Positions 11,190 through 26,644 of a DNA stretch of 64,000 nt are shown in pieces. Numbering within the stretch: the first letter of the stretch is position 1; every line of letters begins with the position of its first letter. The notes beneath the pieces were generated by a model that saw only the letters and a list, made by a program, of their open reading frames with translations, searched no databases and was not told the origin of the DNA. The DNA is from a virus: the IMG/VR virus record IMGVR_UViG_3300048592_000962, positions 1 to 64,000 of that record. The stretch is one strand, 5' to 3'. The position numbers were made by a program, and so were the translations under genes.

Positions 11190-11871
11190 AGGGGTAGCCC
11201 TTCTTGGCGAACCACTCTGCGCGCTCGTTGTCGTGCACTCGGTCGAGCGCCTCTTGCCTTCGGATCAGCTCGAACATGGTGTACGGAGGGATCTCGTTGT
11301 CCTGAGCCATCGCAAACAACAGCTTCCCCGTCGCCTCCGCGTCGTCGGTGGCTCGGTGGGCCGATTCGATACTGATGTCTTTGCGTTTGCAGGCTTCGAC
11401 GAGTTTGTTGCCGGCCCAGATCCCATGCTTGTGGCGAACCCACACCACAGGGTCGATCCAGCGAAACGCCGAGTTGAACATCGGTACCGTGACGGTCGAT
11501 AGATCGAGCCCAGTCAGCCGACCAAGCTCAGACGTCCAGAATCGTTCGTCGAAGAGCCCGTTGTACGCGCAAGGCCACGCATCCCGAGTCATCCAGAGAA
11601 GCCGCGGCAGAGAGGCTTGAAATCGTGGGGCGGATGCGACATCGGCAGTCGTGATCCCATGGATCTTCGACGCCTCCTCGGGGACGTCTCGCCCTGGGTG
11701 CAGGAGCGTCCCCCACTTCGCAACGAGTCGTCGGTTCTCGAACCGAGCCACGCCCAGCTCGATGATGCGGTCGTTTTCGGGCGATAGCCCGGTGGTCTCG
11801 ACGTCGAATACGACGATCGCGTGTTCGTACCAAGGTCGAAACCAGTTTCCCGTGTTCGCTCCGGGGATCAT
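11170..11871 (-). CDS. DnaQ-like 3'-5' exonuclease, 233 aa
   Basis: ATG 11871 overlaps the helicase stop (ATGA) and has GGAGGAATGG upstream; a longer frame is only overlap with the helicase. DEDD motifs: VFDVETTG (D23, E25), NGLFDERF (D108) and HRATDD (H172, D177), i.e. the DEDDh class. The C-terminal extension (MFELIRRQEALDRVHDNERAEWFAKKGYP) recalls bacterial 3'-5' exonucleases acting near DNA polymerases. Probable proofreading or recombination exonuclease; no polymerase gene is seen in the window. Confidence 0.85.
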   Translation of the reverse strand: MIPGANTGNWFRPWYEHAIVVFDVETTGLSPENDRIIELGVARFENRRLVAKWGTLLHPGRDVPEEASKIHGITTADVASAPRFQASLPRLLWMTRDAWPCAYNGLFDERFWTSELGRLTGLDLSTVTVPMFNSAFRWIDPVVWVRHKHGIWAGNKLVEACKRKDISIESAHRATDDAEATGKLLFAMAQDNEIPPYTMFELIRRQEALDRVHDNERAEWFAKKGYPYERRYE

Positions 11872-14800
11872 CCATTCCTCCGGCGAAAGTCTACGATCAG
11901 TCGAGCGGCCTCGCCCTTCGTCAGCGGATGCTGCGACTCTTTGACTGCGATCCTGTTCACCCTCAGGAAAGCAAGCTGCTTTTCGGTTGCGGGCACGCGC
12001 ATCTTTCTGTCGCGCTCGACCTGAAGAATCAGGATCATGTCCGAAGCTTCGCCCATCGTTTCTGGGAGCGTGGCTTCTTTTGCCCCGAGGTTCAGCAGGT
12101 ATGTCCGCTGTTTCTTCGACATCGGAAGCTTTCGCCATGACGCACTTTCGAGTAGAGCTGCCTCCTCGATTTCCAGGTCGTCTTCTACGCCGTCCGTCAC
12201 GTCGATGAAGCTGAGCGACTCCAGGTGTGCGCCGTCGTCGTCGTCTGCAAACTCGGCGTGGTCTCCGCGCCAGGAATAGAGGTCGCGCTGCCGACGCGCG
12301 TTGAAGAAGCGGTCCATCTCGCCTTCAACCATGCCGTAGGCCAGCTCGAAGTCGATGGGGTCTCGAACCACCTCACGGGCGGGGAGGTGTCGACGCTTGG
12401 GGCGCTGGTCGAAGAACGAGATCACGCACTTGTGGCGAGCGCGGTCGGACCATGAGCACAGGTAGTATCCGATCCGTGGGATCTGAAGCACCCACCCAAT
12501 ATCAGTCTCTCGCCATTGGTAGCGAGTCTTCGAGGGGCGCCGAGAAATCTCGAACGCCTCACCGCGAATCCGTGCCTCCCGGACCTCCGGAAGCTCCTCC
12601 TCGTCTTCCTCGGGCTGTTCACCGTTCGCGCGTCGCTCTGCGCCGTCGGATACCGCGAGGTTCGGATCGAACCCGGCGAGGGACGCAAGCTGCACCGGCT
12701 GGTGCTTCTCCGAGTTGCCGACACAATCGATGACGAGGCATTCTGTTTTGCCAGGCCAAGGACGCAGACCGCGACCCATGCAGTTGCCGACAATTGAGAC
12801 TTTTCCGTTTCTCCGAACGAAGATGGCGCCAGTTTCAGACTCTACACACCACACGCGCTCACTAGCAATAGAATCGACCACGCTCCACGTTGGACGACCA
12901 TCTGATGAGCGCGTAACCATCGACCATTCACGGTCCGGACTCCCGTGCAGCATGCAGATGGTTGAGTCAAACCTTGCATTACACCTGTATCCAGACCTGA
13001 CTAGCAGCGATTGCAGCTGACTCCCGAGGCGGTGGTTAGCGGTAGACACCGAAAAAGAGTGCCTCTCGTAATCTTCCGGCTGAAACTTGGCTCCGTTGCC
13101 ATCGAGTACCGCGGACATGAGAACTCCGACCTGCCTCGAAGAAAGCAGGTCAAACCGCTCCGTCAGCGACTTACCATCGTGCCCGATCCAATCTGACAGC
13201 CTGTCCCAGCCCGTGAGATGTTTGTCTCGTCCACGAGGTTTACCCTTCGAAATCCACCACTTGTTCATTTGGTAGTTTCGCTTGAAGTTCGACGCGCCGC
13301 TCTTCCTGCTGTAGCCAAACTTGAATCCACAGTCGCGGATGCACGACTCTATTCGCCGAACAACTTCTGGGTACTTGTCGGACTGCGATATGGTGATCTG
13401 GTTGTTCTTCCTGTTCAGGTTTCCGTCGGTTAGAAGATACCCAATGAACATGAGTTCACAATCAGCGATAAGAGCGCAGTCAGTGTCATCACGTTTTACG
13501 CACGACACTGGTACCTTTGATTCAGAAGGAATAGAGTCTGCTGAGCGAAACGAGAACGAAGAGCCTTTCCTGGGCTTGACGACCATTTGATGGCCCGCGG
13601 TCACCCTTAGAGACATGTGCGGAGATTCGATTCCGAACATGGGTTCGTCGCCAAGCTCTCTTTCTGTTCGAGAAAGCACCGGAGACCATCGCCAGTCCTC
13701 GTTCTCCACGTCAAAGGCTGCCAGCTGAACGTTTTCTAGGCTATCGCCGATTCCTTTCCACCCGGCACTGGTCAGCACTTCCGTTTTTTCGTCTAGACAC
13801 TGAATGTAAAGACCCTGGCTTTGCGTTGGTCGAGCAAACAGAACGCACTCAATCGAAGGCTCGTCGAATCCTTCGGTGAGGACCTCGCAACTAACAAGTA
13901 GTTTCGTGGCGCCCTCGGAAAATCGAGAATAGATTGCGGTCCGATCCTTGGCCTTCGTCTTCCCATGAACGACTTCGGCCGCGTAGCCTGCATCGTTGAA
14001 GAAGCTAGCGAGCGCGACGGCGTGCTCGACGTCGACAGCAAACACGATGGTCTTTCGGTTGTGGCCGAATTGCATCCAGGAGTGGACGATGGCTTCGTGT
14101 ACCCGAGGCTGGTTCAGTAGCTTGGACAGCTGGCTGGACGAGTAGTCGCCGCCTTCGGTACGAACGCGATCGAGGTCGAGGTCGATGTTGACGCGAAATC
14201 CTTTGGGGGGGACGAGGTATCCGTCGCGGATCAGATCGAACGAGTTTCGTTCGTAGCAGACCGTGTCGAAGACGAGGTCGAGCGCGACGCCGTCGCTCCG
14301 TCCTGGGGTGGCGGTCATCCCCATGACGCGTACGTCAGGGTTGGTGGCGCGAACGGATTGGATGACGCGAAGCCACTGGGGGCTCACGGCGTGGTGAGCT
14401 TCGTCGAGGATGAGGAGGTCGAACCGGCCAGCGTTGAGCACCTGGTCGAGCCGCCGCCCGTCTTTGCCTCCGAGGGTCTGTACGGAGGCGATGGTCACGT
14501 CGATGTGCGGACCGACCTCGTTGCGGGAGGCCTGGACGAGGCCGGTGGTGAGGTCGCCTCCGGCCATGCGGATCTTCTCCTGCGTCTGGACCAGCAGTTC
14601 CTTCCGGTGTGCGAGGAAAAGCGTTCGTGCGCCCCGAGCCTCCTTGAAGGCTCGTGCGAGCGCCGAAGCGATGACCGTTTTTCCGCCGCCTGTCGCGATC
14701 ACGACCAGCGGAGCCCTGTGTCCCGAGTGCCACGAGCGCTGCACCGATTCCACGGCGTCGCGCTGGTAGGGTCGGAGAGGGAGGAGGCTGCTGTCTCGGA

Positions 14801-14993
14801 TCGGAAGAAGGTCGGCCTGCGCCGCTTGCTCGGCGCGCTGTGCCTGTTCGTCGAGAATCCCAGGTCCAAGTGCTCGCACGTGAAGCTGGCCGGGCTCGCC
14901 TGGTTGTCCAGTCCAGTCGAGCCACCACCTTTCGTCCACGTCCGTCACCATCGGCGGCGTGTAGACGCCGAGAGGCATGCGCACGAAGGGCAT
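11868..14993 (-). CDS. SF2 DEAH helicase interrupted by an intein, 1041 aa
   Basis: ATG 14993 shares one base with the previous stop (TGATG) and follows AAGGGCGG. Host motifs: RPYQRDAV Q-region (~74-81), TGGGKT Walker A (101-106), DEAH (197-200), TATP (227-230), and motif VI split as 'SQGLYIQ | CMGRGLRP'. Removing the 339-residue intein leaves a ~702-aa helicase of the SSL2/RecQ-like restriction-helicase type. The C-terminal ~100 residues contain 'KQRTYLLNLGAKEATLPETMGEA', a small helical DNA-binding-like module. It probably remodels replication or recombination intermediates. Self-splicing is needed to restore motif VI. Confidence 0.85.
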   Translation of the reverse strand: MPFVRMPLGVYTPPMVTDVDERWWLDWTGQPGEPGQLHVRALGPGILDEQAQRAEQAAQADLLPIRDSSLLPLRPYQRDAVESVQRSWHSGHRAPLVVIATGGGKTVIASALARAFKEARGARTLFLAHRKELLVQTQEKIRMAGGDLTTGLVQASRNEVGPHIDVTIASVQTLGGKDGRRLDQVLNAGRFDLLILDEAHHAVSPQWLRVIQSVRATNPDVRVMGMTATPGRSDGVALDLVFDTVCYERNSFDLIRDGYLVPPKGFRVNIDLDLDRVRTEGGDYSSSQLSKLLNQPRVHEAIVHSWMQFGHNRKTIVFAVDVEHAVALASFFNDAGYAAEVVHGKTKAKDRTAIYSRFSEGATKLLVSCEVLTEGFDEPSIECVLFARPTQSQGLYIQCLDEKTEVLTSAGWKGIGDSLENVQLAAFDVENEDWRWSPVLSRTERELGDEPMFGIESPHMSLRVTAGHQMVVKPRKGSSFSFRSADSIPSESKVPVSCVKRDDTDCALIADCELMFIGYLLTDGNLNRKNNQITISQSDKYPEVVRRIESCIRDCGFKFGYSRKSGASNFKRNYQMNKWWISKGKPRGRDKHLTGWDRLSDWIGHDGKSLTERFDLLSSRQVGVLMSAVLDGNGAKFQPEDYERHSFSVSTANHRLGSQLQSLLVRSGYRCNARFDSTICMLHGSPDREWSMVTRSSDGRPTWSVVDSIASERVWCVESETGAIFVRRNGKVSIVGNCMGRGLRPWPGKTECLVIDCVGNSEKHQPVQLASLAGFDPNLAVSDGAERRANGEQPEEDEEELPEVREARIRGEAFEISRRPSKTRYQWRETDIGWVLQIPRIGYYLCSWSDRARHKCVISFFDQRPKRRHLPAREVVRDPIDFELAYGMVEGEMDRFFNARRQRDLYSWRGDHAEFADDDDGAHLESLSFIDVTDGVEDDLEIEEAALLESASWRKLPMSKKQRTYLLNLGAKEATLPETMGEASDMILILQVERDRKMRVPATEKQLAFLRVNRIAVKESQHPLTKGEAARLIVDFRRRNG
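12783..13799 (-). other. LAGLIDADG intein, 339 aa
   Basis: Begins at Cys (CLDEKTEVLTSAGWKGI, block A). Block B is RVTAGHQMVV with the TxxH motif. Two LAGLIDADG-like segments follow: 'LMFIGYLLTDGNL' and 'GVLMSAVLDGNG', indicating a homing endonuclease domain. It ends with 'RRNGKVSIVGN' before a Cys +1. The penultimate residue is Gly, not the usual His, although the terminal Asn and Cys +1 are intact. Composition looks AT-richer than the flanks, consistent with horizontal entry. Insertion in helicase motif VI is a typical conserved-site choice. Confidence 0.88.
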
Positions 14994-15538
14994 CAGCCGC
15001 CCTTGGATGAGACGGAGTTGATCAGCGACTCGATCTCGTTGTCCAAGTACCATCGCGCCTTGCGCAGGTCATCGATCGCGGATTCGCCGGACTTCTTTCC
15101 AGCTCGCGCGATGTACTTGATCGCATTCCCGAGAGCGAACCCGAGCTTCCAGGCTCGGATGACCTTGATGGCTTCGTACGGGTTGTCCTTCCCGCCGTAG
15201 TGCGCCGGGTGGTCAACCTTGGGGGACGAGGCGATGTCAGCCGGCCGGTTGGCGAGAAGGCTGAGCAGATTCTCGCGAAACGCCTGGACGTTTGCGATTC
15301 GATACACGGTGCCGTTCGATTCAAAACCATCGGGGCCGTGAAACGAGATATAGCTGTATCGCTTGGTTGATGGCTCCTGCGCCTGGAAAAGCGCGTGCAC
15401 TGAGCGCAGCTCTCCCCAGGGTAGACAGGCAAAGACCACCTTCGTCAGCCCCTGCCCTGGCGAGTAGACTTGAACGGATCTACCACCATCCGTGGTCTCA
15501 ACGAACAGATCGATATCTGAGCGAACGTCAAGTTTCAT
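14993..15538 (-). CDS. DUF3310 family protein, 181 aa
   Basis: ATG 15538. The C-terminal half contains VDHPAHYGGKDNPYEAIKV, then LGNAIKYIARAGKK and 'IDDLRKARWYLDNEI', the signature of the phage DUF3310 family (small helical proteins sometimes linked to nucleotide metabolism). The N-terminal ~110 residues are a separate beta-rich domain. Coupled upstream of the SF2 helicase. Molecular role not established. Confidence 0.75.
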   Translation of the reverse strand: MKLDVRSDIDLFVETTDGGRSVQVYSPGQGLTKVVFACLPWGELRSVHALFQAQEPSTKRYSYISFHGPDGFESNGTVYRIANVQAFRENLLSLLANRPADIASSPKVDHPAHYGGKDNPYEAIKVIRAWKLGFALGNAIKYIARAGKKSGESAIDDLRKARWYLDNEIESLINSVSSKGG

Positions 15539-18391: not shown

Positions 18392-18434
18392 GGGCTCCTC
18401 GCGTTGTCGCGGATGTCAGACAAGGGGAGCCACG

Positions 18435-18463
18435 AGCCTAGTTGGTCGATCGTTGTGGGTCAA
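18435..18463 (-). promoter_or_regulatory. Sigma70-type promoter for the HTH/recombination operon
   Basis: On the minus strand: -35 TTGACC (18463-18458), 17-base spacer, -10 TAGGCT (18440-18435). Transcription would begin near 18428, about 37 bases before the start codon at 18391. The same -10 hexamer occurs in the promoter at 59962-59991. Confidence 0.6.
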
Positions 18464-18479
18464 CAACAATCGACGGACA

Positions 18480-19349
18480 TCACCGGGGGCTGAGCTGGGC
18501 GTACAGCTCCTTGCGCTCGGCGGGCGGGAGGAGGTGTCCGAACGCCTGAAGGAACGCCAGCGGCGGAATGTTGCGTTCCATGGCTCGGGTGAAGCCGGTG
18601 CGGAAGCTGACGTTGCTCTGCTTGCCGGCGAACGATATCGCAATCGGGGCTCGCACGGCTTCGCCTCCCGACACGTCGTACGCGCTCCACACGGGTGTCC
18701 CGGAGGCGGCGTGCTGAAGGATCAGCGATCCCTTCCGAACGCCAGGCCGGACTGCTTTCCCGTCGTCATGCGCGAGGCGGAGGGAACGGGCTCCGTAGGT
18801 GTCGGGGTACTTACCCTGCGACAGGCCGGGCGCGAGCGAGCCTCCGAGCAGGTCTCCGAACGCCTGCTTGAACTGGCTCGCCTTGAACCAGGGGGCGACA
18901 CGGCGCATGGCGTCGGCGGGTCGGTAGAGCGGCTGGCTCTCCCCGTCGATCTCGATCCAAATCGCTCTCTCGATCCCCCACGACCCCGGAGCCTCGACCG
19001 TCTGCGCCTGGAGCTGCTTGGGCGTACCCTTGAGCGTCTCGGAGGCGAACAGGTATCCGTGGCGAATTTCTCTCTTCTTGCGGGCGTTTCGTGTCAGCCG
19101 GCCGAGATGACCGAAGGCGATGTCGACGTCTTCGCGGGGGATGCCCTCTTCGCGAGCGATCTTGTCGAACTGCTTTCGGTTGGGGAACTCGACGACGCCA
19201 GATCCGCGGTCGACGGCGATGCGTCCTCGAAGGCGCGGATCTGAGTCCTTGTGCTCACGTGCGCTGAAGCCAGGCCCGGTGATCGAGCCTCGGCGAGAGG
19301 TGTATCGCTTGCCCCTGCGACTGGTACGACGGTCCATGAGACCGAGCAT
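18480..19349 (-). CDS. Hypothetical protein, 289 aa
   Basis: Starts at 19349 or 19337 (MDRRTSRRGKRY); neither has a clear Shine-Dalgarno site. Very basic N-terminus (RRTSRRGKRYTSRRGS), then a mixed alpha/beta body with no motif I recognise. The reading frame is followed by the promoter of the next operon. Its upstream side borders the 36-bp repeat array at 19379-19602, which would be its 5' leader. Confidence 0.5.
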   Translation of the reverse strand: MLGLMDRRTSRRGKRYTSRRGSITGPGFSAREHKDSDPRLRGRIAVDRGSGVVEFPNRKQFDKIAREEGIPREDVDIAFGHLGRLTRNARKKREIRHGYLFASETLKGTPKQLQAQTVEAPGSWGIERAIWIEIDGESQPLYRPADAMRRVAPWFKASQFKQAFGDLLGGSLAPGLSQGKYPDTYGARSLRLAHDDGKAVRPGVRKGSLILQHAASGTPVWSAYDVSGGEAVRAPIAISFAGKQSNVSFRTGFTRAMERNIPPLAFLQAFGHLLPPAERKELYAQLSPR

Positions 19350-19378
19350 ACCAGCCGCAGGGATGCACGCGAATCATC

Positions 19379-19602
19379 GGCTCGCGCCCCTGGTTTGGGT
19401 GACGAAGCTACCCCGGCTCGCGCTCGCAGTTCGGTTGAAGACACTACGCAGGCTCGCGCACGTAGAACGGATGTCGAATGCCGCTTGGCTCGCAGATGCG
19501 GTTCGGTTGAAGAACCGTTGACGGCTCGCGTATGTAGAACGGATGTCGGATGCCCTATGGCTCGCGGTCACGCTTTGGGTGGAGTGGCATCGCTGGCTCG
19601 CG
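19379..19602. repeat. TIGR-type array 1: six 36-bp dual-spacer units plus end edge
   Basis: Units start at 19379, 19415, 19451, 19487, 19523 and 19559, each exactly 36 bp, with a final edge at 19595. Read on the plus strand, each unit is edge GGCTCGCG (or GGCTCGCA), a 10-base spacer A, an 8-base loop GGNTGNNG, then a 10-base spacer B. Spacer A/B pairs: CCCCTGGTTT/AAGCTACCCC; CTCGCAGTTC/ACACTACGCA; CACGTAGAAC/AATGCCGCTT; GATGCGGTTC/AACCGTTGAC; TATGTAGAAC/GATGCCCTAT; GTCACGCTTT/TGGCATCGCT. Same format as the array beside the Tas-like gene at 24390-25340. Transcribed strand unknown. Confidence 0.85.
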
Positions 19603-19855
19603 CATCGGGCACAGGCGGGAACATCACGTGTAGCAGACTTGTCACCGCTCGCGCCAGCGCATCGTCGCTCATCCTCTTTCGGTGATCACACATCGTCCTT
19701 CGACGGTAGTCCCATGGCGACCACGCGCCACAGTCGAAGCACCAGCGCGGCCTGTTCTCAGCAAGTCGCCGCGCATCGCGCAGGTGGAATTTTACCTGCC
19801 CCCAGTGCCAGTCCTGCTCAGACGCCGCTGCTTTTTTGGTGAGGCTCACAAACAC
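19568..19855 (-). CDS. Zinc-ribbon protein, 95 aa
   Basis: GTG start near 19855 (GTG at 19849 also possible). The core 'RPRWCFDCGAWSPWDYRRRTMCDHRKRM' holds CxxC plus CxH, a small zinc finger. The last ~12 residues run into the 36-bp repeat array, so either the array grew into the gene's 3' end or the stop codon was captured by it. Confidence 0.5.
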   Translation of the reverse strand: MFVSLTKKAAASEQDWHWGQVKFHLRDARRLAENRPRWCFDCGAWSPWDYRRRTMCDHRKRMSDDALARAVTSLLHVMFPPVPDARASDATPPKA

Positions 19856-19856
19856 C

Positions 19857-20228
19857 TCACGGTTTTCGCTCTGCCGCTGTCCTCACGCGCGAGAACAAGA
19901 GGCTGAGTCTTTCGCGCAGGCCGAGCGGGACGGTCATGCGTTTCACGCCGATGCGCCTCGTCGCCCCAAAGAATGGACCATGCGACATTCCGCGCACGGA
20001 GAAGCTTCCTTCGCGCATCTCGCGCACCGAGCGAGCGTGTTCGCCGGTGTCGTCGGGGATGAAGTGGATCGTCAGGCTGACCAGCTGACTATCGTCGCGC
20101 TCGGTCCACGACACCGCTTCGACGGAGCACAGATTGATTCCCATGTAGTTGGGAATGACTGTCAGAGGCAGCGGGCAATCCGAGTCGTCATCCGCCATTT
20201 CGCTCATGGTTCGCAGGAAAGTCTTCAT
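19857..20228 (-). CDS. Hypothetical protein, 123 aa
   Basis: I start at ATG 20228 (MKTFLRTMSEMADDD) because it overlaps the stop of the 29-codon reading frame upstream as ATGA. Beta-rich middle with 'SLTIHFIPDDTGEHA', then a basic C-terminus. No family recognised. Confidence 0.5.
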   Translation of the reverse strand: MKTFLRTMSEMADDDSDCPLPLTVIPNYMGINLCSVEAVSWTERDDSQLVSLTIHFIPDDTGEHARSVREMREGSFSVRGMSHGPFFGATRRIGVKRMTVPLGLRERLSLLFSRVRTAAERKP

Positions 20229-20314
20229 GGTTTCACTGTTGGATGAGGTTGAAATGCACCGAACGCCGCGCCGCCGAGAGCCTTCCAAAGCTTCTCCGGA
20301 ATCTTCGCCTTCAT
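20225..20314 (-). CDS. Tiny protein, 29 aa
   Basis: MKAKIPEKLWKALGGAAFGA... from ATG 20314, preceded by AGGAGC, ending in ATGA over the start of the next gene. It lies 19 bases after the tmRNA 3' end. The amphipathic N-terminal helix is plausible for a real micro-protein or a translational-coupling leader. Confidence 0.4.
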   Translation of the reverse strand: MKAKIPEKLWKALGGAAFGAFQPHPTVKP

Positions 20315-20333
20315 CTGTCTACTAGCTCCTAAC

Positions 20334-20684
20334 TGGTGGACGAGCGGGGATTCGAACCCCGGTCCGCGAGAGCCTCAACACAGTCGTTTACACGCGTATC
20401 AACGTTTGCTTGCGGGGTACGTTGCCAACCCACGAGAGCGACACTGCCGAGCCGCTCTGCGCCTCCACCATCCTGCGTTTATCGGTGCAGGACCCGGTTT
20501 TCCTCGTGCATGACGCCCCTTGAGATCTACGAGGACTCAACCTCAGGGACGCTCACGCAGCCTTCGCTGCGTGAGAGATCGCGTTGTCGTTCGCGTTTCG
20601 TGCAGTCGATTTTTTGAGAGGCCTACGACCATCCTCTGCGTGCGATCTGTGCGTCAATCTCCCACGTCGAAACCGTTCTCGCCC
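20334..20684 (-). ncRNA. ssrA: tmRNA
   Basis: The 5' end GGGCGAG pairs with CTCGTCC at the 3' end (7-bp acceptor), followed by A and an encoded CCA. The diagnostic 5' motif GGTTTCGACGTGGGAG is present, and the T-arm is CGGGGTTCGAATCCCCG. The tag reading frame (20603-20553) starts at GCA after AAAAAATCGACT and encodes ARNANDNAISHAAKAA then TGA. The size (351 nt) is normal for a one-piece tmRNA. The tag ends AKAA rather than the common ALAA. It would rescue stalled ribosomes and tag nascent proteins. Confidence 0.95.
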
Positions 20685-20736
20685 GTAACTCGTCATGCGA
20701 CGAGTAAACACAACCTGCGCCCGCAAAACCCGAAGG

Positions 20737-21222
20737 TCAACTGAACAGGCTTCCTTGCCGCGACGACATAACCGTCTCGCGGATCTTCTGAAACTTGTCG
20801 AGCGCAACGATCGCGTCTCGAATCGCGGACGCATCGGTGACATCCCCCTTGGATTCGAGGAAGGTCGCCGCCTCGCGAAACTGCTTGCGCATGCGCGACG
20901 TCAGAACGGGCTTTGGGACCTTGTCGACCTTGGACGGCAACTGGTCCGTCACGTCGTACTCGTTGACGACGCGCTTGGTCACCGTGCACTCACGCTCGCG
21001 GAGAACCTCGACGACTCCTCGTTCGAGAAGCTCGTTGAGTCGTGCGTGAACGTTGCCGGCCTCACCTCGTCCTCCGCGCGAGGGTCCGAAGGTCTGCGCA
21101 AGCTCCGCAGCGGTGGCGGGCCCCATGTCGTAGAGCTTGGCGTACACGCGCCAGCGCATCTTCGAGAGAAGGCCCTCGCTCTGAATCTGATTGTACACCG
21201 CGACGCTGGTCTTGCGGCTCAT
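20737..21222 (-). CDS. Winged-helix regulator-like protein, 161 aa
   Basis: 'RWRVYAKLYDMGPATAAELAQTFG ... GNVHARLNELLERGVVEVLRERECTVTKRVVNEY' has the helix-turn-helix plus wing layout of MarR/ArsR-type or phage replication-type winged-helix proteins. The C-terminal half is helical (FREAATFLESKGDVTDASAIRDAI). It lies 52 bases before the tmRNA on the same strand. Confidence 0.6.
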   Translation of the reverse strand: MSRKTSVAVYNQIQSEGLLSKMRWRVYAKLYDMGPATAAELAQTFGPSRGGRGEAGNVHARLNELLERGVVEVLRERECTVTKRVVNEYDVTDQLPSKVDKVPKPVLTSRMRKQFREAATFLESKGDVTDASAIRDAIVALDKFQKIRETVMSSRQGSLFS

Positions 21223-21256
21223 GTATGGCTCCTATCTGATGGTTCTCCGATGGCGC

Positions 21257-21535
21257 TCACTGCGGGTCTTTACCACGAATGTCCGCCAACAACTGCGTGA
21301 CGATCGCCGATGGTTGCTGAGCGCGGACCTTGGCTGCCGCCGCAGCGATGTCCTCAAACAATTCGCGCAGCGCTTCCAGTTGCACTTCCGGCACCGCAAG
21401 CCTCGTGAGCATCGCAGCAAACTCTGTTCGGCGTTCCGATCTGCTCATCTTGGCAATATCGCTGGCACGCGAAATACATTCATCCGAGAAGGCGTCGATC
21501 CCCTCGAACGTCCCTGGACTCTTGGAGCGACTCAT
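21257..21535 (-). CDS. Hypothetical helical protein, 92 aa
   Basis: ATG 21535 overlaps the previous stop. Predicted mostly alpha-helical ('EVQLEALRELFEDIAAAAAKVRAQQ'), no motif. Part of the run ending at 20737. Confidence 0.5.
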   Translation of the reverse strand: MSRSKSPGTFEGIDAFSDECISRASDIAKMSRSERRTEFAAMLTRLAVPEVQLEALRELFEDIAAAAAKVRAQQPSAIVTQLLADIRGKDPQ

Positions 21536-21765
21536 CCTTCATCCTTCTTCAACGCGTCACGCAACCAGGTGCGAACCTCGCTGTACGGCGCGGCAACGAA
21601 GTGCAGCCCCGTGTAGGAGGTACCTTCTTGGCAGCGGACCACTGTGATCTCGGGCCGACTTCGGTGGGCCGTGACCGAAACGATGGTCGCTGGGTCGACG
21701 AGGACGCGCTCGTTGTGTTCGAGCGGAAGCTCGATCATGTGACCGACACGCGCAGGCACGGTCAC
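21532..21765 (-). CDS. Hypothetical protein, 77 aa
   Basis: Overlaps both neighbours by 4 bases. Beta-rich: 'VLVDPATIVSVTAHRSRPEITVVRCQEG', similar in feel to small SH3/LytTR-like barrels common in phage operons. No family assigned. Confidence 0.5.
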   Translation of the reverse strand: MTVPARVGHMIELPLEHNERVLVDPATIVSVTAHRSRPEITVVRCQEGTSYTGLHFVAAPYSEVRTWLRDALKKDEG

Positions 21766-22136
21766 GCGGGGTCTCCCATGGCAGCGTGAAGGAACGTGGC
21801 GAGAAGCTGCTTGTCTGCTCCGATCGTGTGACCGTAGATGCAGTTGAACTTCTCTCCGAGGTAGAGCGCGTGGTGAGGCGCGAGAGCCAGCGATTCGCCG
21901 GAGTGCGTGTTGGCCATCGGGAACTCGATTCCCGCATCCAACGACTCCTGGCAGATGTCGATGAACTTGGCCTGAAGCCCGCAGAACTCGATGAACGCGT
22001 GGCAGCCTGTATGCGTGGCGGCTGCGTAGAAGTCCTTGTTGACGGTCCGCATCTTGCGGATCATCTCGCGCATCTCGCCGAGCGAGTGCGCGTGCCCTGG
22101 CAGCTTGTATTCGTCCGGAAGGTGTCGGGTGTTCAT
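21762..22136 (-). CDS. Hypothetical protein, 124 aa
   Basis: ATG 22136. The sequence 'HSLGEMREMIRKMRTVNKDFYAAATHTGCHAFIEFCGLQAKFIDICQ' is helical with His/Cys residues, like the metal- or DNA-binding small phage proteins grouped near recombination genes. Family not recognised. Confidence 0.5.
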   Translation of the reverse strand: MNTRHLPDEYKLPGHAHSLGEMREMIRKMRTVNKDFYAAATHTGCHAFIEFCGLQAKFIDICQESLDAGIEFPMANTHSGESLALAPHHALYLGEKFNCIYGHTIGADKQLLATFLHAAMGDPA

Positions 22137-22162
22137 GGTCTCGTCCTGGTGATGAGGAATGG

Positions 22163-22207
22163 GCCTCTTGGCGGGAATCGAACCCGCCGGGTGCAGCCAG
22201 CAGAGGC
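22163..22207 (-). ncRNA. tRNA-like element with only acceptor and T arm
   Basis: The minus strand reads GCCTCT (22207-22202), a 13-base linker, GGCGGGTTCGATTCCCGCC (an exact B-box T-arm), then AGAGGC (22168-22163) followed by CCA. The ends pair over 6 bp. There is no D-arm or anticodon arm, so it is not a decoding tRNA. It sits just downstream of the parB stop and may be an RNase P/RNase Z processing signal, a mimic of tRNA ends, or a tRNA remnant. Confidence 0.5.
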
Positions 22208-22217
22208 GATGGAATTC

Positions 22218-23081
22218 CTACTTCAGCAGGGCCGTCAGACCCTTGATCCGCTTCGCGCGACCCTCGTCGCCCAGCACCCAGTGCAGGAGGTTCTGAGCGT
22301 CCTCCGAGAGGTTCGCCATGAACTCCTCGTTTTCGATGATCTTGCGCAACACCGGCGTCCCAGGACGGCGCCCGTGCGTGCCCTCCGCGCTCTTGCCGGA
22401 CTTGCGCGCCTGACGCTGACGCTTCGCCTCGGCGACGCCCGTAGCGCCTGCGGCGAGCATCTCGTCGAGCTTCGCGACCTGGTCTTCGCGCTTGAGGTCG
22501 GTCAGCTGAATCGCTGCGGTGAACGTGATCTTCTCCGCTTCGATCGCCTTCTGTACCTTCGCATCGAGGTCGAGAATGCTGAGCAGGTTCTTGATCTGCT
22601 GCTTCGTCAGGCCGAACACGATCGCGAGATCGTCTTCGCCCATGCCCATCCGCATGAGGCGGGCGGCCTTCTTCGCGCGGGTGACGGGATCGTCGTTGCG
22701 GCGCTGCTCGTTCTCGGAGATCGCGATCGCGAACGCGTGGCGATCGTCGGAACGGAGCACGGTCGTCGGAACGAGGATCTCGGGCATCCCCTTTTCCACG
22801 TTCCGACGACTCGCTTCGCGAGCATGGAGGACGCGACGCCGACCCGCCACGACCTCGGGCACGCCGCCGTTCTTGCGAACGGTCACGTTCTCGATGACGC
22901 CGAGAGCCTGGATGTTGCGGATCAGGTTCTCGTCGAGTGGCAGCTTGATGCGCTCGTCGTAGAGCGGGTGCTCCGGACCATCCTGAGTGTCGTGACCGAT
23001 CACGACCAGTTCGTTCGGGTCCATCGCGAACGCGTTGAGGCGCTTGCCGTCGAGTGCGGCGCGGTTTCGCTTCTCTTCCAT
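22218..23081 (-). CDS. ParB-family protein, 287 aa
   Basis: The ParB N-terminal fold is clear: 'VVAGRRRVLHA' (GRRR box, 80-83) and 'SENEQRRNDDP' (123-128 box II), followed by HTH 'GMGEDDLAIVFGLTKQQIKNLLSILDL'. The C-terminus is basic and helical. The length suits a centromere-binding or CTP-switch ParB. No ParA is found in the window, so segregation may use another partner or the protein may regulate transcription or DNA modification. Confidence 0.8.
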   Translation of the reverse strand: MEEKRNRAALDGKRLNAFAMDPNELVVIGHDTQDGPEHPLYDERIKLPLDENLIRNIQALGVIENVTVRKNGGVPEVVAGRRRVLHAREASRRNVEKGMPEILVPTTVLRSDDRHAFAIAISENEQRRNDDPVTRAKKAARLMRMGMGEDDLAIVFGLTKQQIKNLLSILDLDAKVQKAIEAEKITFTAAIQLTDLKREDQVAKLDEMLAAGATGVAEAKRQRQARKSGKSAEGTHGRRPGTPVLRKIIENEEFMANLSEDAQNLLHWVLGDEGRAKRIKGLTALLK

Positions 23082-23111
23082 GCTGTCTCCTGTCTGCTGA
23101 TGTGTGAGTCG

Positions 23112-23423
23112 TCAGAACTTGACGACGACCTGGGTGCTGAGCTTGATCGGTAGCACCTGCCCCCGAATCACGAGCACGTTCTCGATGCCGTTCGTGGGAT
23201 CGAAACCCTCGTCCGAGAGAAGCTTCCCCACTTCCTTCTTCGTCATGACCTGCCCGAGCAGCTTGTACCCCTCGGGGGCGCGGGCCATGACCGCGTCGTC
23301 GCCCTCACCGACCATCTTGTCGACGTACCCCGTGGGAACGAGGACGTAGAGCGGCTTGCGATTGACGACGCGCTTCGGCTTGTCGCCGCCCTGGTTCTCC
23401 GTATTCTCGGTATTCTTGGCCAT
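23112..23423 (-). CDS. Hypothetical protein, 103 aa
   Basis: ATG 23423 (MAKNTENTENQGG) has GGAGG upstream; an upstream extension lacks a ribosome site. Beta-rich small domain 'KPLYVLVPTGYVDKMVGEG ... GYKLLGQVMTKKEVGKLL'. Lies just before parB. Confidence 0.55.
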   Translation of the reverse strand: MAKNTENTENQGGDKPKRVVNRKPLYVLVPTGYVDKMVGEGDDAVMARAPEGYKLLGQVMTKKEVGKLLSDEGFDPTNGIENVLVIRGQVLPIKLSTQVVVKF

Positions 23424-23474
23424 GAAACCTCCGATGCGGAGAGTACGTCGACCGTTCGTGTCTGACAAGCAGAT

Positions 23475-23750
23475 TTATCGTTTGCGCGACCGTTTGTGCG
23501 ACGTCTTGCTTGGCGACACGCTCCCGACCCAGCTCGGTATTTCGAGCGCGCGTGCGGAGTTGCGCGGAGCAACGTTGACGGCGCGAATGAGTTGTGGATG
23601 CGCCGGGTCATGCGACCATCGCACCCGCACAAACATCTGGTCCACCACCTCGACGATCGTGCCGACGTAGAAACACGCATCCCCCGTTGGCGCTTGGCCG
23701 GTGCTGTAGAGGAAAGCGTTGGTGTACTGAACTTCGGTGTTGATGTTCAT
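23475..23750 (-). CDS. Hypothetical protein, 91 aa
   Basis: Start ATG 23750 (MNINTEVQYTNAF). 'ACFYVGTIVEVVDQMFVRVRWSHD' looks like a small beta-barrel; the C-terminus is basic. It is the first gene downstream of the array at 23794-24377, so its mRNA leader may carry that array. Confidence 0.5.
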   Translation of the reverse strand: MNINTEVQYTNAFLYSTGQAPTGDACFYVGTIVEVVDQMFVRVRWSHDPAHPQLIRAVNVAPRNSARALEIPSWVGSVSPSKTSHKRSRKR

Positions 23751-23793
23751 GTTGCGGTTCGCGGTAGCTGAGCGCGTGTAGGCCGTCTTGTTT

Positions 23794-24377
23794 GGCTCGC
23801 GGGGCTCGCGTGGGTGAAGATCGCCTTTCGGCTCGCGTTTCTTTTCGGTGGTAACGGGCAACGGCTCGCGGTTTGGTTCTGGGTGACGATCGCACTCCGG
23901 CTCGCGCTCCTGTTCCGGTTGGCGGGGCTGGCGCGGCTCGCGCTCGCAGTTCGGGTGATGGGACGATGATGGCTCGCGAGTTGTGCTCGGTGGAGGGTGT
24001 TCTGACGGCTCACGACGAGGTAGCGGGTGTCGTAGGGGGGGGGAATGGTTCGCGTCGCGCTTTTGGGTGGGGACAGATGGCTGGCTCGCGTGGTCGATTC
24101 GGGCGTCATACCGTCTTGGCTCGCGCGCTTAGGTTGGGTGTCGGTCAAGTCACGGCTCGCAGCGCTTGTTCGGTGGTCGTTGGGAGATCGGCTCGCGGGG
24201 TGATCGTGGGTGACGGGGCACTCTCGGCTCGCGGCTGCGCTATGGGTGAGGTTCGCCACATGGCTCGCGTCGCGCGTTCGGTGGTCGTATCGCAGATGGC
24301 TCGCGTCATGCCTTTGGTGGCCGTAGTGTCGTCGGCTCGCGCGATGGTTCTGGTTGCCGAGTTCTTCGTGGCTCGCG
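23794..24377. repeat. TIGR-type array 2: sixteen dual-spacer units plus end edge
   Basis: Units begin at 23794, 23830, 23863, 23899, 23935, 23971, 24007, 24047, 24083, 24118, 24154, 24190, 24226, 24262, 24298 and 24334, with a last edge at 24370-24377. Thirteen are exactly 36 bp; the others are 33, 40 (a G9 run in spacer B) and 35. Each reads edge GGCTCGCG, 10-base spacer A ending in a pyrimidine, 8-base loop GGNKGNNG, 10-base spacer B. Spacers differ from unit to unit while edge and loop are kept. Example pairs: GTTTGGTTCT/ATCGCACTCC, CGCTTAGGTT/GTCAAGTCAC, CGATGGTTCT/AGTTCTTCGT. It ends 12 bases from the Tas-like stop codon. This is the format of tandem interspaced guide RNA arrays, not of CRISPR. 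Confidence 0.9.
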
Positions 24378-24389
24378 CGCCTTGGTGAC

Positions 24390-25340
24390 TCAGGGCTGCC
24401 CGTAGCGCTTGGTTCCTCCGTGGACGTGTCCGAGCTTCTCTTCGTGGTATGACGGCCGGACCGGAAGATCGAGCGATTCGCGCCAGCGCTTGTGCAGCTC
24501 GATGAGGAACATCTTGATCATGTAGCGCCGGCAGTCGGCGTCCCGGTGCGCGTCAGAGCGCCCCCACGGACCGATTCCCTCGCCGTTGCAATTCGAGCAG
24601 ACTTCCGTCTTCTCGCCCTTGGGCATGCCGGCTACCTTTCCGGCTACCTTCCCGAGGTGCCCGTGGCCGTCGCAGAGCATGCACTTGACGCGCTGAGAGC
24701 GACGGTAGTGCTTCCGGTTGTCGTAGTAGCTGCGCCACGGAAACGGTGCACCCTCGTCGGTGGCGCGGAACAAGATCTTGTCCTTCCGCTTCACCACGTA
24801 CTCGCCGTTCTCGTCGAGCGAGTAGGCCTTGATCATGGCGTCCGCCAGAACCTTGACCATCTTGCTCTTCAGCCACGGGTTGAACCCGGCCTTGGCTCCC
24901 TTCACGCGCCGCTGAGCGCGACCATCTGGCGCGACGGCGAGGCCGGCGTAGCTCCACATCTGAGACACGCACTCCTCGATCTCGATGCGGAAGCTGCTGA
25001 GCAACACCGCCGCCATGGTCGGTCCGACGCCGCGCTGATGAGTCAGCCAGTTGTCGAAGATGTCGATCCCCTTCAGCCGCTTGGCGACGTGCAGGAGCGC
25101 TTTGTGCTCCAGCTCTTCGAGTTGTTCTTCCATCGCGCCGAGGAACTCCTGGTCGATCTGGTCGAGCGCGGGGCGGCTCTCCTCGGTGCCTCGAACCGAG
25201 TCGGGGCGGGCTCGGTTGCCCGTCGCGATGCGGAACTTCTGGAGGTCGTAGAGGAACGACGCGGAGTGACGGACCGAGATCAGCTTGGCAAGCCTCGGAT
25301 CGGTGGGCTGAGACGGGGTGACGGTTTCTTCGCTGCTCAT
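24390..25340 (-). CDS. tas: Tas-like Nop-domain protein of a TIGR-Tas system, 316 aa
   Basis: A helical/coiled-coil segment (~60-95) leads into 'HQRGVGPTMAAVLLSSF ... MWSYAGLAV' (101-136), the helix-hairpin-helix core shared by IS110 transposase C-termini (Transposase_20) and Nop-type snoRNP proteins. Two CxxC knuckles (CMLCDGHGH 220-228, CSNCNGEGIG 248-257) form a DnaJ-like zinc insert, and the family C-terminal helix follows (RRYMIKMFLIELHKRWRESL). There is no RuvC/DEDD or HNH nuclease domain, so it resembles nuclease-less Tas proteins. The dual-spacer array lies 13 bp downstream. Likely role: binding ~36-nt guide RNAs for DNA recognition. The main alternative is a domesticated IS110-like protein. 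Confidence 0.75.
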   Translation of the reverse strand: MSSEETVTPSQPTDPRLAKLISVRHSASFLYDLQKFRIATGNRARPDSVRGTEESRPALDQIDQEFLGAMEEQLEELEHKALLHVAKRLKGIDIFDNWLTHQRGVGPTMAAVLLSSFRIEIEECVSQMWSYAGLAVAPDGRAQRRVKGAKAGFNPWLKSKMVKVLADAMIKAYSLDENGEYVVKRKDKILFRATDEGAPFPWRSYYDNRKHYRRSQRVKCMLCDGHGHLGKVAGKVAGMPKGEKTEVCSNCNGEGIGPWGRSDAHRDADCRRYMIKMFLIELHKRWRESLDLPVRPSYHEEKLGHVHGGTKRYGQP

Positions 25341-25346
25341 GACTTC

Positions 25347-25883
25347 TCACTCCTCGGTGTCGCACGCCTCGGGAAACGATTCCGCGAGCGCCGCGAGCCA
25401 CACATGTACGTCTGACTGGGTGTTCTCTTGAGACCGGCGCACGATGCGCCAGGCCTTCTGTCTCTTCTGCTCGTCGTGCGGGTGCAGCGACGTCTGAAAG
25501 AGCGTTGCGCGAACAAGGTTTGCGTAGCACGCGTCGGTGCTCGCGATAGCCCGCTCGCCCATGGTGATGAGCGACTCGGACGCCTTCTTCGGATTCTCTT
25601 TCGAGAGAACCGTCAGCATCGAGACCGCACCCTTCAGCATCTGGCGGGCGTTTTCGAGAGCACGAATCGGGTCTACGGGCGTCGCCTGACCTCGTTCGAG
25701 TCGCTCGATGTTTTCCAGCAGCTCTGCACCGACGCAGTCTCGGGCAGCCCACACAGCGCTCACGACGTGCACTTCGAGATCTTCCTCTGCCGGAGGAAGC
25801 ATTCGGCTGATCCGAGGCGGAGCCTTGGGCTCGCGCGAGGGCTCCTTGGCCACTTGCGGCATTTCTTTGACGACGCGCCTCAT
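25347..25883 (-). CDS. Hypothetical helical protein, 178 aa
   Basis: Ends seven bases before the tas-like start, so the two are probably co-transcribed. Basic Pro-rich start, then long amphipathic helices ('ENIERLERGQATPVDPIRALENARQMLKGAV'). No nuclease motif. Possible partner of the Tas-like protein on position alone; family unknown. Confidence 0.5.
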   Translation of the reverse strand: MRRVVKEMPQVAKEPSREPKAPPRISRMLPPAEEDLEVHVVSAVWAARDCVGAELLENIERLERGQATPVDPIRALENARQMLKGAVSMLTVLSKENPKKASESLITMGERAIASTDACYANLVRATLFQTSLHPHDEQKRQKAWRIVRRSQENTQSDVHVWLAALAESFPEACDTEE

Positions 25884-26644
25884 GTACCGACCTTTGTTTC
25901 GTCGAATCCGAGATTCAGAAGCGCTTCGAGCCGATCTACGGCAGGAATCTCTTCCCTCAGCGCAGGCTCTACGACGTCGAGCACGGCTTGCTTGGCGAGG
26001 TTGGTGGCCAGCAAGTTGATTTCATCCTTGATCAGACCTCGGATCTCGGCATCGGCCTCTTTGATAGCATCTGCGACAGCAGCGGCAATCCATTCTGAAT
26101 CGAACTTCTTCAGCGCCTCATCGCGAAAGAGTTCTAACGTCTTCTCAAGAACGTCCGACAGCATGCCGGAGTCGAGCATCGCTTGGGCTTGCGCGCGAAT
26201 CCTGTTGCCCACCGAGACGCCAACCAGAGTGTCGGTTCTCGCGAAGGAGCCCTCAACCCCGAGTTCTTTCCGGATCACAGTATCGACCACCTGTGACAGC
26301 GCACGCTGAATGGTGGATTCGATGTACGAGTCTTTTGTGATGCCAGCGACCCGTCTGCGCACGGCGGCGACCGTGACATCGTGTAAGGACTTGGCGATGG
26401 GCAGGTCGACCGGTGGTCCAGCGCGAAGGTCATCCAACTCTTTGCGCAACCGATTCACCTCGTGGGATGCGTCCATGTGCCGCAACATCGGGCTCATTTG
26501 CGCCATGCGCCGAAGCGCTTCCATCTCGACCCACATTGCCGCGATTGAGGCGTGAATCTGCTCCATCTCGCCTTCTTTTCGGCGCCGACTGCTCAGGTGA
26601 AGCAGCTTTTCGTCCTCGAACTCGTCCTCGAACTCGTCGCTCAC
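25880..26644 (-). CDS. Coiled-coil protein, 254 aa
   Basis: GTG 26644 overlaps the previous stop (GTGA); the longer upstream frame is out-of-frame overlap. Acidic N-terminus (EFEDEFEDEK), then heptad-like helices through most of the length and an Ala/Glu-rich C-terminus. No catalytic motif; probably oligomeric. Confidence 0.55.
   Translation of the reverse strand: MSDEFEDEFEDEKLLHLSSRRRKEGEMEQIHASIAAMWVEMEALRRMAQMSPMLRHMDASHEVNRLRKELDDLRAGPPVDLPIAKSLHDVTVAAVRRRVAGITKDSYIESTIQRALSQVVDTVIRKELGVEGSFARTDTLVGVSVGNRIRAQAQAMLDSGMLSDVLEKTLELFRDEALKKFDSEWIAAAVADAIKEADAEIRGLIKDEINLLATNLAKQAVLDVVEPALREEIPAVDRLEALLNLGFDETKVGT

Follow-up and report, generated by a model that had tools for sequence, protein, structure and literature searches.

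A TIGR guide array separated from the tas gene in a viral genome with three dispersed arrays

Dual-repeat TIGR-TasA systems were described by Faure et al. (2025; PMC12045711). Their 36-nt units consist of two alternating repeats with box D and box C and of 9-nt spacers, they comprise a Nop-domain protein without nuclease, and they are carried by viruses. In the published TasR repeats UG forms the start and CCA the end; most spacers measure 9 nt, and the guide RNA comprises 36 nt. The agreement of edge and loop letters was explained by binding to a symmetric dimer (PMC12045711). A stem-loop type system in three subarrays about 450 nt apart was described as well, and arrays were sought within 5-kb flanks of tas (PMC12045711). 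Here we examined positions 1 to 64,000 of the virus record IMGVR_UViG_3300048592_000962 (G000; 159,872 bases, G+C 62%), below called the window; array coordinates are in window numbering. It contains a block of 36-nt units, array 1, at a distance from the only tas gene. The G000 system is a true TIGR-TasA system with dispersed arrays. In contrast to TIGR-TasA as presented in PMC12045711, it has three arrays per Tas, one of them about 54 kb away, its protein carries a zinc-type CxxC insert, and the distal array has no terminator-like site. Array 1 is a genuine TIGR guide array separated from the tas gene and, judging from sequence, is probably working. The reading as a whole, i.e. a probably working array read by a distant TasA which binds without cutting, appears to us very likely.

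Format and strand of array 1

On the minus strand each unit of array 1 consists of an edge (YGCGAGCCR), a 9-nt spacer A, a loop (YNNCANCCR) and a 9-nt spacer B, in keeping with the published box D/box C scheme. The first-pass annotation of the window had reported six exact 36-bp units; these were recovered, together with a closing edge. At lag 36 a 9-mer, counted as a copy at 7/9 or more matching bases, formed a run of seven copies, and the maximum across 60 Markov-1 simulations of the window was three. Six of the seven edges are GGCTCGCG, and the single variant, GGCTCGCA, has a terminal T. Box C was seen in all six units. Truncated end edges and a rho-independent terminator are usual in dual-repeat arrays, though not universal; no truncation of the final edge was visible here. 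Edges were thus near-uniform, as annotated, whereas the loops turned out to be variants of YNNCANCCR and not one block. With every unit at 36 nt and one edge change in seven, array 1 exceeds arrays 2 and 3 in regularity. The dual-repeat format is characterized by edge and loop repeats that alternate, have 8-12 nt each and are separated by spacers of about 9 nt. Array 1 displays it in six units of 9+9+9+9 nt, and a Nop-domain Tas is encoded in the same genome. A CRISPR array, with repeats of about 25-36 nt and spacers of similar size, was rejected: the repeats here measure about 9 nt and come in two kinds that alternate (no separate search for Cas genes was made).

The coding sense of the guides is the minus strand, as for tasA and the genes around array 1, because of the published TasR repeat layout and because the repeats of relatives lie on the Tas strand. 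These repeats (AGCGAGCCA- and AGACAACCA-like) share the strand of the Tas gene, the sole exception being a weak call in the sequence L034. The initial reading of the block on the other strand was accordingly reversed.

A 36-bp period might also stem from a coding minisatellite or from an ordinary tandem repeat without guide function. 36 bp equal 12 codons, open frames span the block, and the pattern alone is unspecific: in a scan of bacterial genomes for the same edges (triple-edge pattern, genome_contigs L110-L226) a Tas ORF (open reading frame) was present in 14 of at least 117 stretches listed. We assume that most of the Tas-less stretches are coding repeats. The array itself argues otherwise. 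Two conserved 9-nt blocks alternate with unconstrained 9-nt spacers, and the box letters are those of arrays 2 and 3 and of the phage with the nearest Tas. Furthermore, array 1 contains two 72-bp copies (19415-19486 and 19487-19558) which agree in 54 of 72 bases; 16 of the 18 differences are located in spacers and two in edges (Fisher P 0.00024). In each of six frames 10-11 codons were changed, 0-4 of them synonymously. Because synonymous change shows no excess in any frame, this speaks against a protein repeat; synonymous-only change, named in the first-pass annotation as the mark of a coding repeat, was not seen in these copies. A coding or functionless repeat is highly improbable. As an aside, the Tas-bearing stretches of the scan occur in metagenome-assembled genomes labelled Altiarchaeales, Patescibacteria, Sphaerochaeta, Hydrogenophaga and others; some may be prophages.

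One Tas protein and three arrays

A Tas family search of the whole record found only tasA (24390-25340) and no second Tas. The ORF matched phrog_4285 (labelled transposase) at 5.8e-38. When a 40-sequence profile was run against the PDB, TasR (9mty) was found at 3.9e-52, TasH at 1.2e-36 and IS621 weakly at 6.2e-6, the latter match spanning only part of TasA. An AlphaFold2 model (mean predicted local distance difference test score 83.3) was superimposed on TasR 9mty with Z 18.8 and a root mean square deviation of 1.6 over 191 residues. In structural ranking TasR came first, followed by TasH and then IS110-type recombinases; the top Foldseek matches were TasR and TasH. The fold, Nop plus coiled coil, is common to TasR (PDB 9mty) and TasH (PDB 21kl, 9w04). 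Unlike in these proteins, no nuclease domain (RuvC, HNH) was seen in the 316 residues. Therefore, the product is, as far as sequence and model indicate, a nuclease-less TasA-like protein. The CxxC...CxxC insert is of zinc type; residues 226-248 are below 50 in model confidence. IS110/IS621 bridge-RNA recombinases have a related RNA-binding domain in common with TasA. IS110 transposases combine an N-terminal DEDD nuclease with a C-terminal transposase domain. In TasA no DEDD domain was seen, nor was there a bridge RNA layout; the first model helix begins at residue 15, and the alignment to IS621 (8wt6) sets in at chain residue 124 (absence from match lists is not proof). A separate observation concerns the insert: in IMGVR_UViG_3300043256_000147 a 9-edge TIGR array (L030:1468-1763) is embedded in frame in the tas ORF (884-1981), where it separates one CxxC half of the zinc-type insert from the other.

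Array 1 is 4.8 kb away from tasA, no Tas adjoins it, and 4.19 kb separate it from array 2 (19602 to 23794), in agreement with the annotated 4.2 kb and missing Tas neighbor. Array 3 has the same format, is located outside the 64-kb window between plus-strand ORFs, and contains many degenerate edges and loops. Further isolated units were not found in the record at up to 4 mismatches over 24 specified positions.

Do all three arrays belong to one protein? The box D letter of the loop is C in all 32 parsed units, and that of the edge is C or T in 31 of them, across all three arrays. The same letters, except in 3 of 30 units, occur in record G001, whose Tas is nearest to G000 TasA (42% identity, measured on copy L028). 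In the other records A is present in both edge and loop in 324 of 344 parsed units; thus, repeats in G000 begin with C/T and those of most fetched relatives with A. Because arrays 1 and 3 obey the letter rule of array 2, which is the main evidence, a single TasA probably serves arrays 1, 2 and 3 in trans. The proposal in the first-pass annotation that one protein may serve two arrays is supported by the single Tas and the common letters; the arrays, however, number three. Its assignment to the TIGR type agrees with Tas homology and fold, with the box D letters and with the relatives, in which the same repeats lie beside Tas genes: a scan for these repeats gave a Tas ORF in 25 of 31 stretches and a Tas elsewhere on the contig in two more.

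Arrays more than 3 kb from Tas were encountered only in G000 and in G001/G018, in a survey of 24 records read whole or nearly so and of 16 shorter loci, many records being fragments. G001 and G018 represent a single system on two contigs (100% identity across 5,142 bp), and one array of G001 is located upstream of Tas at a distance of about 5 kb. On inspection, four-copy periodic stretches in G001, G003, G007, G009 and G019 did not display an edge/loop layout and were discarded. Arrays 1 and 3 do not adjoin tas, yet array 2 does, so the system as a whole has the expected adjacency. Because published arrays were sought within 5-kb flanks, we do not treat array-by-array adjacency as strictly defining for TIGR-Tas. 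Such a search might just reach or just miss array 1 (4.8 to 5.0 kb), and array 3 would escape; searches restricted to 5 kb around tas genes can overlook arrays. In the open literature, as far as accessible (PMC12045711 and the review PMC12385481; preprints and most subscription papers were outside the search), we saw no report of arrays tens of kb from tas or of half-spacer exchange.

The neighborhood of tasA resembles the TasA-TasParB operon (PMC12045711) in that a ParB-like gene is co-directional with tasA with an array in between. Different from that operon, two ORFs intervene in G000, and its ParB is a TasParB candidate only.

Table 1. Location of arrays, array parts and neighboring genes (G000).
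Feature	Position	Strand	Remarks
Array 1	19379-19602	-	six 36-nt TIGR units plus terminal edge; minus-strand reading YGCGAGCCR-9nt-YNNCANCCR-9nt
Units 2, 3, 4 of array 1 (sense order)	19459-19566	-	units 2 and 4 diverged copies
Spacer B of unit 5, array 1	19423-19431	-	AACTGCGAG; identical to a spacer B in array 2
Array 2	23794-24377	-	16 units of 33-38 nt; begins 12 bp past tasA stop codon
Spacer B AACTGCGAG in array 2	23943-23951	-	paired with a different spacer A
Array 3	G000:79841-80351 (L013:15841-16351)	+	13 parsed units; same direction as neighboring ORFs
tasA	24390-25340	-	316-aa Nop-domain protein, CxxC-type insert, no nuclease domain seen
ParB-like gene	22218-23081	-	co-directional with tasA, past array 2 and two small ORFs; PF17762 1.2e-10, phrog_1033 5.6e-33
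ORF upstream of array 1, 95 aa	19568-19855	-	stop codon within spacer B of unit 1
ORF downstream of array 1, 289 aa	18480-19349	-	start 30 bp past array; no family and no viral relative found

Duplicated units and shared half-spacers

The 72-bp duplication of units 2-3 and 4-5, noticed at first pass, was upheld in part. For units 2 and 4 it is well supported (loop 9/9, spacers 12/18 identical). For units 3 and 5 support is weaker; the loop is identical, but the spacers (8/18) are no closer than those of other pairs.

Arrays 1 and 2 have the 10-mer CTCGCAGTTC in common (19423-19432 and 23943-23952). It had been annotated as an identical spacer A; the identity is real, but in the sense of the guide RNA (tigRNA) it is a spacer B. 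The probability of any such cross-array share within G000 was 0.0034 (column shuffle). The search was extended to 23 records with 488 parsed units, from which twelve near-identical or duplicate sequences had been removed beforehand. Six pairs shared spacer A only (one of them, in G021, appears to be a parsing error) and four spacer B only; whole units were repeated twice. Mean values after column shuffles, which keep composition and not ancestry, were 0.125 and 0.055 for A-only and B-only shares, respectively; half-spacer sharing is thus far above chance. Within arrays, 29 unit pairs had at least 12 of 18 spacer bases in common and about 5.5 were expected.

Closely related sequences were then compared. 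A single unit distinguishes L227 from L230 (99.92% over 5,875 bp); in it spacer A was kept and 6 of 9 bases of spacer B were changed. x020 and x037 also have one unit different. Four units are common to L240/L242 (94.8%; of 22 and 29 units) and to L249/L251 (94.4%; of 15 and 17), and five to L234/L235 (95.8%; of 13 and 16). The last two comparisons each included three unit pairs 1-2 bases apart, i.e. point changes and not replacements. In several other pairs above 99% identity the arrays were unchanged. From these sequences a half-spacer seems to be a unit of array change. Such changes may be due to recombination at the repeats, to target-driven replacement or to an assembly artefact. Tentatively, and with more doubt than confidence, one may picture TIGR arrays as a combinatorial, fast-changing guide store in which the half-spacer rather than the whole unit is gained, copied and reassorted, in trans as well, among scattered arrays under one TasA. 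Array growth and spacer gain can be tested concretely in a phage whose single TasA accompanies three arrays and in strain pairs with replaced half-spacers.

Proposed mode of action, targets and genome

We propose that array 1 would be transcribed from the minus strand, most likely within the surrounding minus-strand gene run, that TasA would bind the transcript, and that a host RNase would cut it into 36-nt tigRNAs. The two 9-nt guides of each tigRNA would pair with opposite strands of a DNA target of about 18 bp. Since no nuclease domain is apparent in TasA, the complex would be expected to bind its target and bend it instead of cutting it. Most likely this would keep a competing mobile element from being replicated or transcribed. 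Arrays 2 and 3 would be served by the same TasA, and the arrays appear to change as units are duplicated or lost and as individual half-spacers are replaced.

Several findings weigh against this proposal. A promoter-like site was not found in 18400-26000 and a terminator-like site, typical of published arrays, was absent at the end of array 1. The comparison with related viral genomes suggested at first pass yielded the same repeats beside Tas genes, but no relative carrying array 1 itself. The Fisher test on the box D letters was not corrected for relatedness, and the column shuffles are similarly blind to descent. In related genomes, targets of 385 units were sought on both strands of 28 sequences with the arrays masked (40 sequences less 12 near-duplicates). 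The matches did not exceed controls: with one mismatch there was one and with two mismatches there were 49, compared with 0-2 and 49-56 in the controls. In the record itself none of 35 tigRNAs matched at up to 2 mismatches, and up to 4 mismatches gave 199 matches versus 220-281 per shuffled pairing. Units 2 and 4 each had one exact match in a viral collection, in ORFs of unknown role and with no shuffled control; both may be chance, and we do not claim them as targets. The idea that units 2 and 4 are aimed at one coding sequence, with codon-like differences, found no support.

Possibly array 1 is a relic: it may once have been a TIGR array, or it may be a translocated copy, that has fallen out of expression or use. 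It is short, it lies far from tasA, and the missing promoter- and terminator-like sites would fit. Yet it is array 3 that has degenerate edges and loops while array 1 is the most regular, and the changes in the duplicated units spare the repeats; we regard a relic as unlikely. The guides might also regulate the phage's own genome as an endogenous switch and not act on other elements. The system is phage-encoded, TasA is without visible nuclease, and gene regulation is among the possible roles named by Faure et al. (PMC12045711). The own-record counts given above weigh against such a switch, and we see little probability in it. A probably working array, most likely directed at other elements, is retained as our preferred explanation.

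The virus is probably a bacteriophage. Because the first and last 127 bases of the record are identical (a direct repeat), it suggests a complete circular or terminally redundant genome. A tmRNA gene (20334-20684, tag ANDNAISHAAKAA) is situated between arrays 1 and 2. ARAGORN predicted a tRNA with a four-base anticodon (tcta) at L017:8448-8523 (G000:152448-152523). Finally, the window contains a helicase ORF of 1061 aa (11868-15053) in which helicase families match residues 92-419 only; the remainder may contain an insertion such as an intein.
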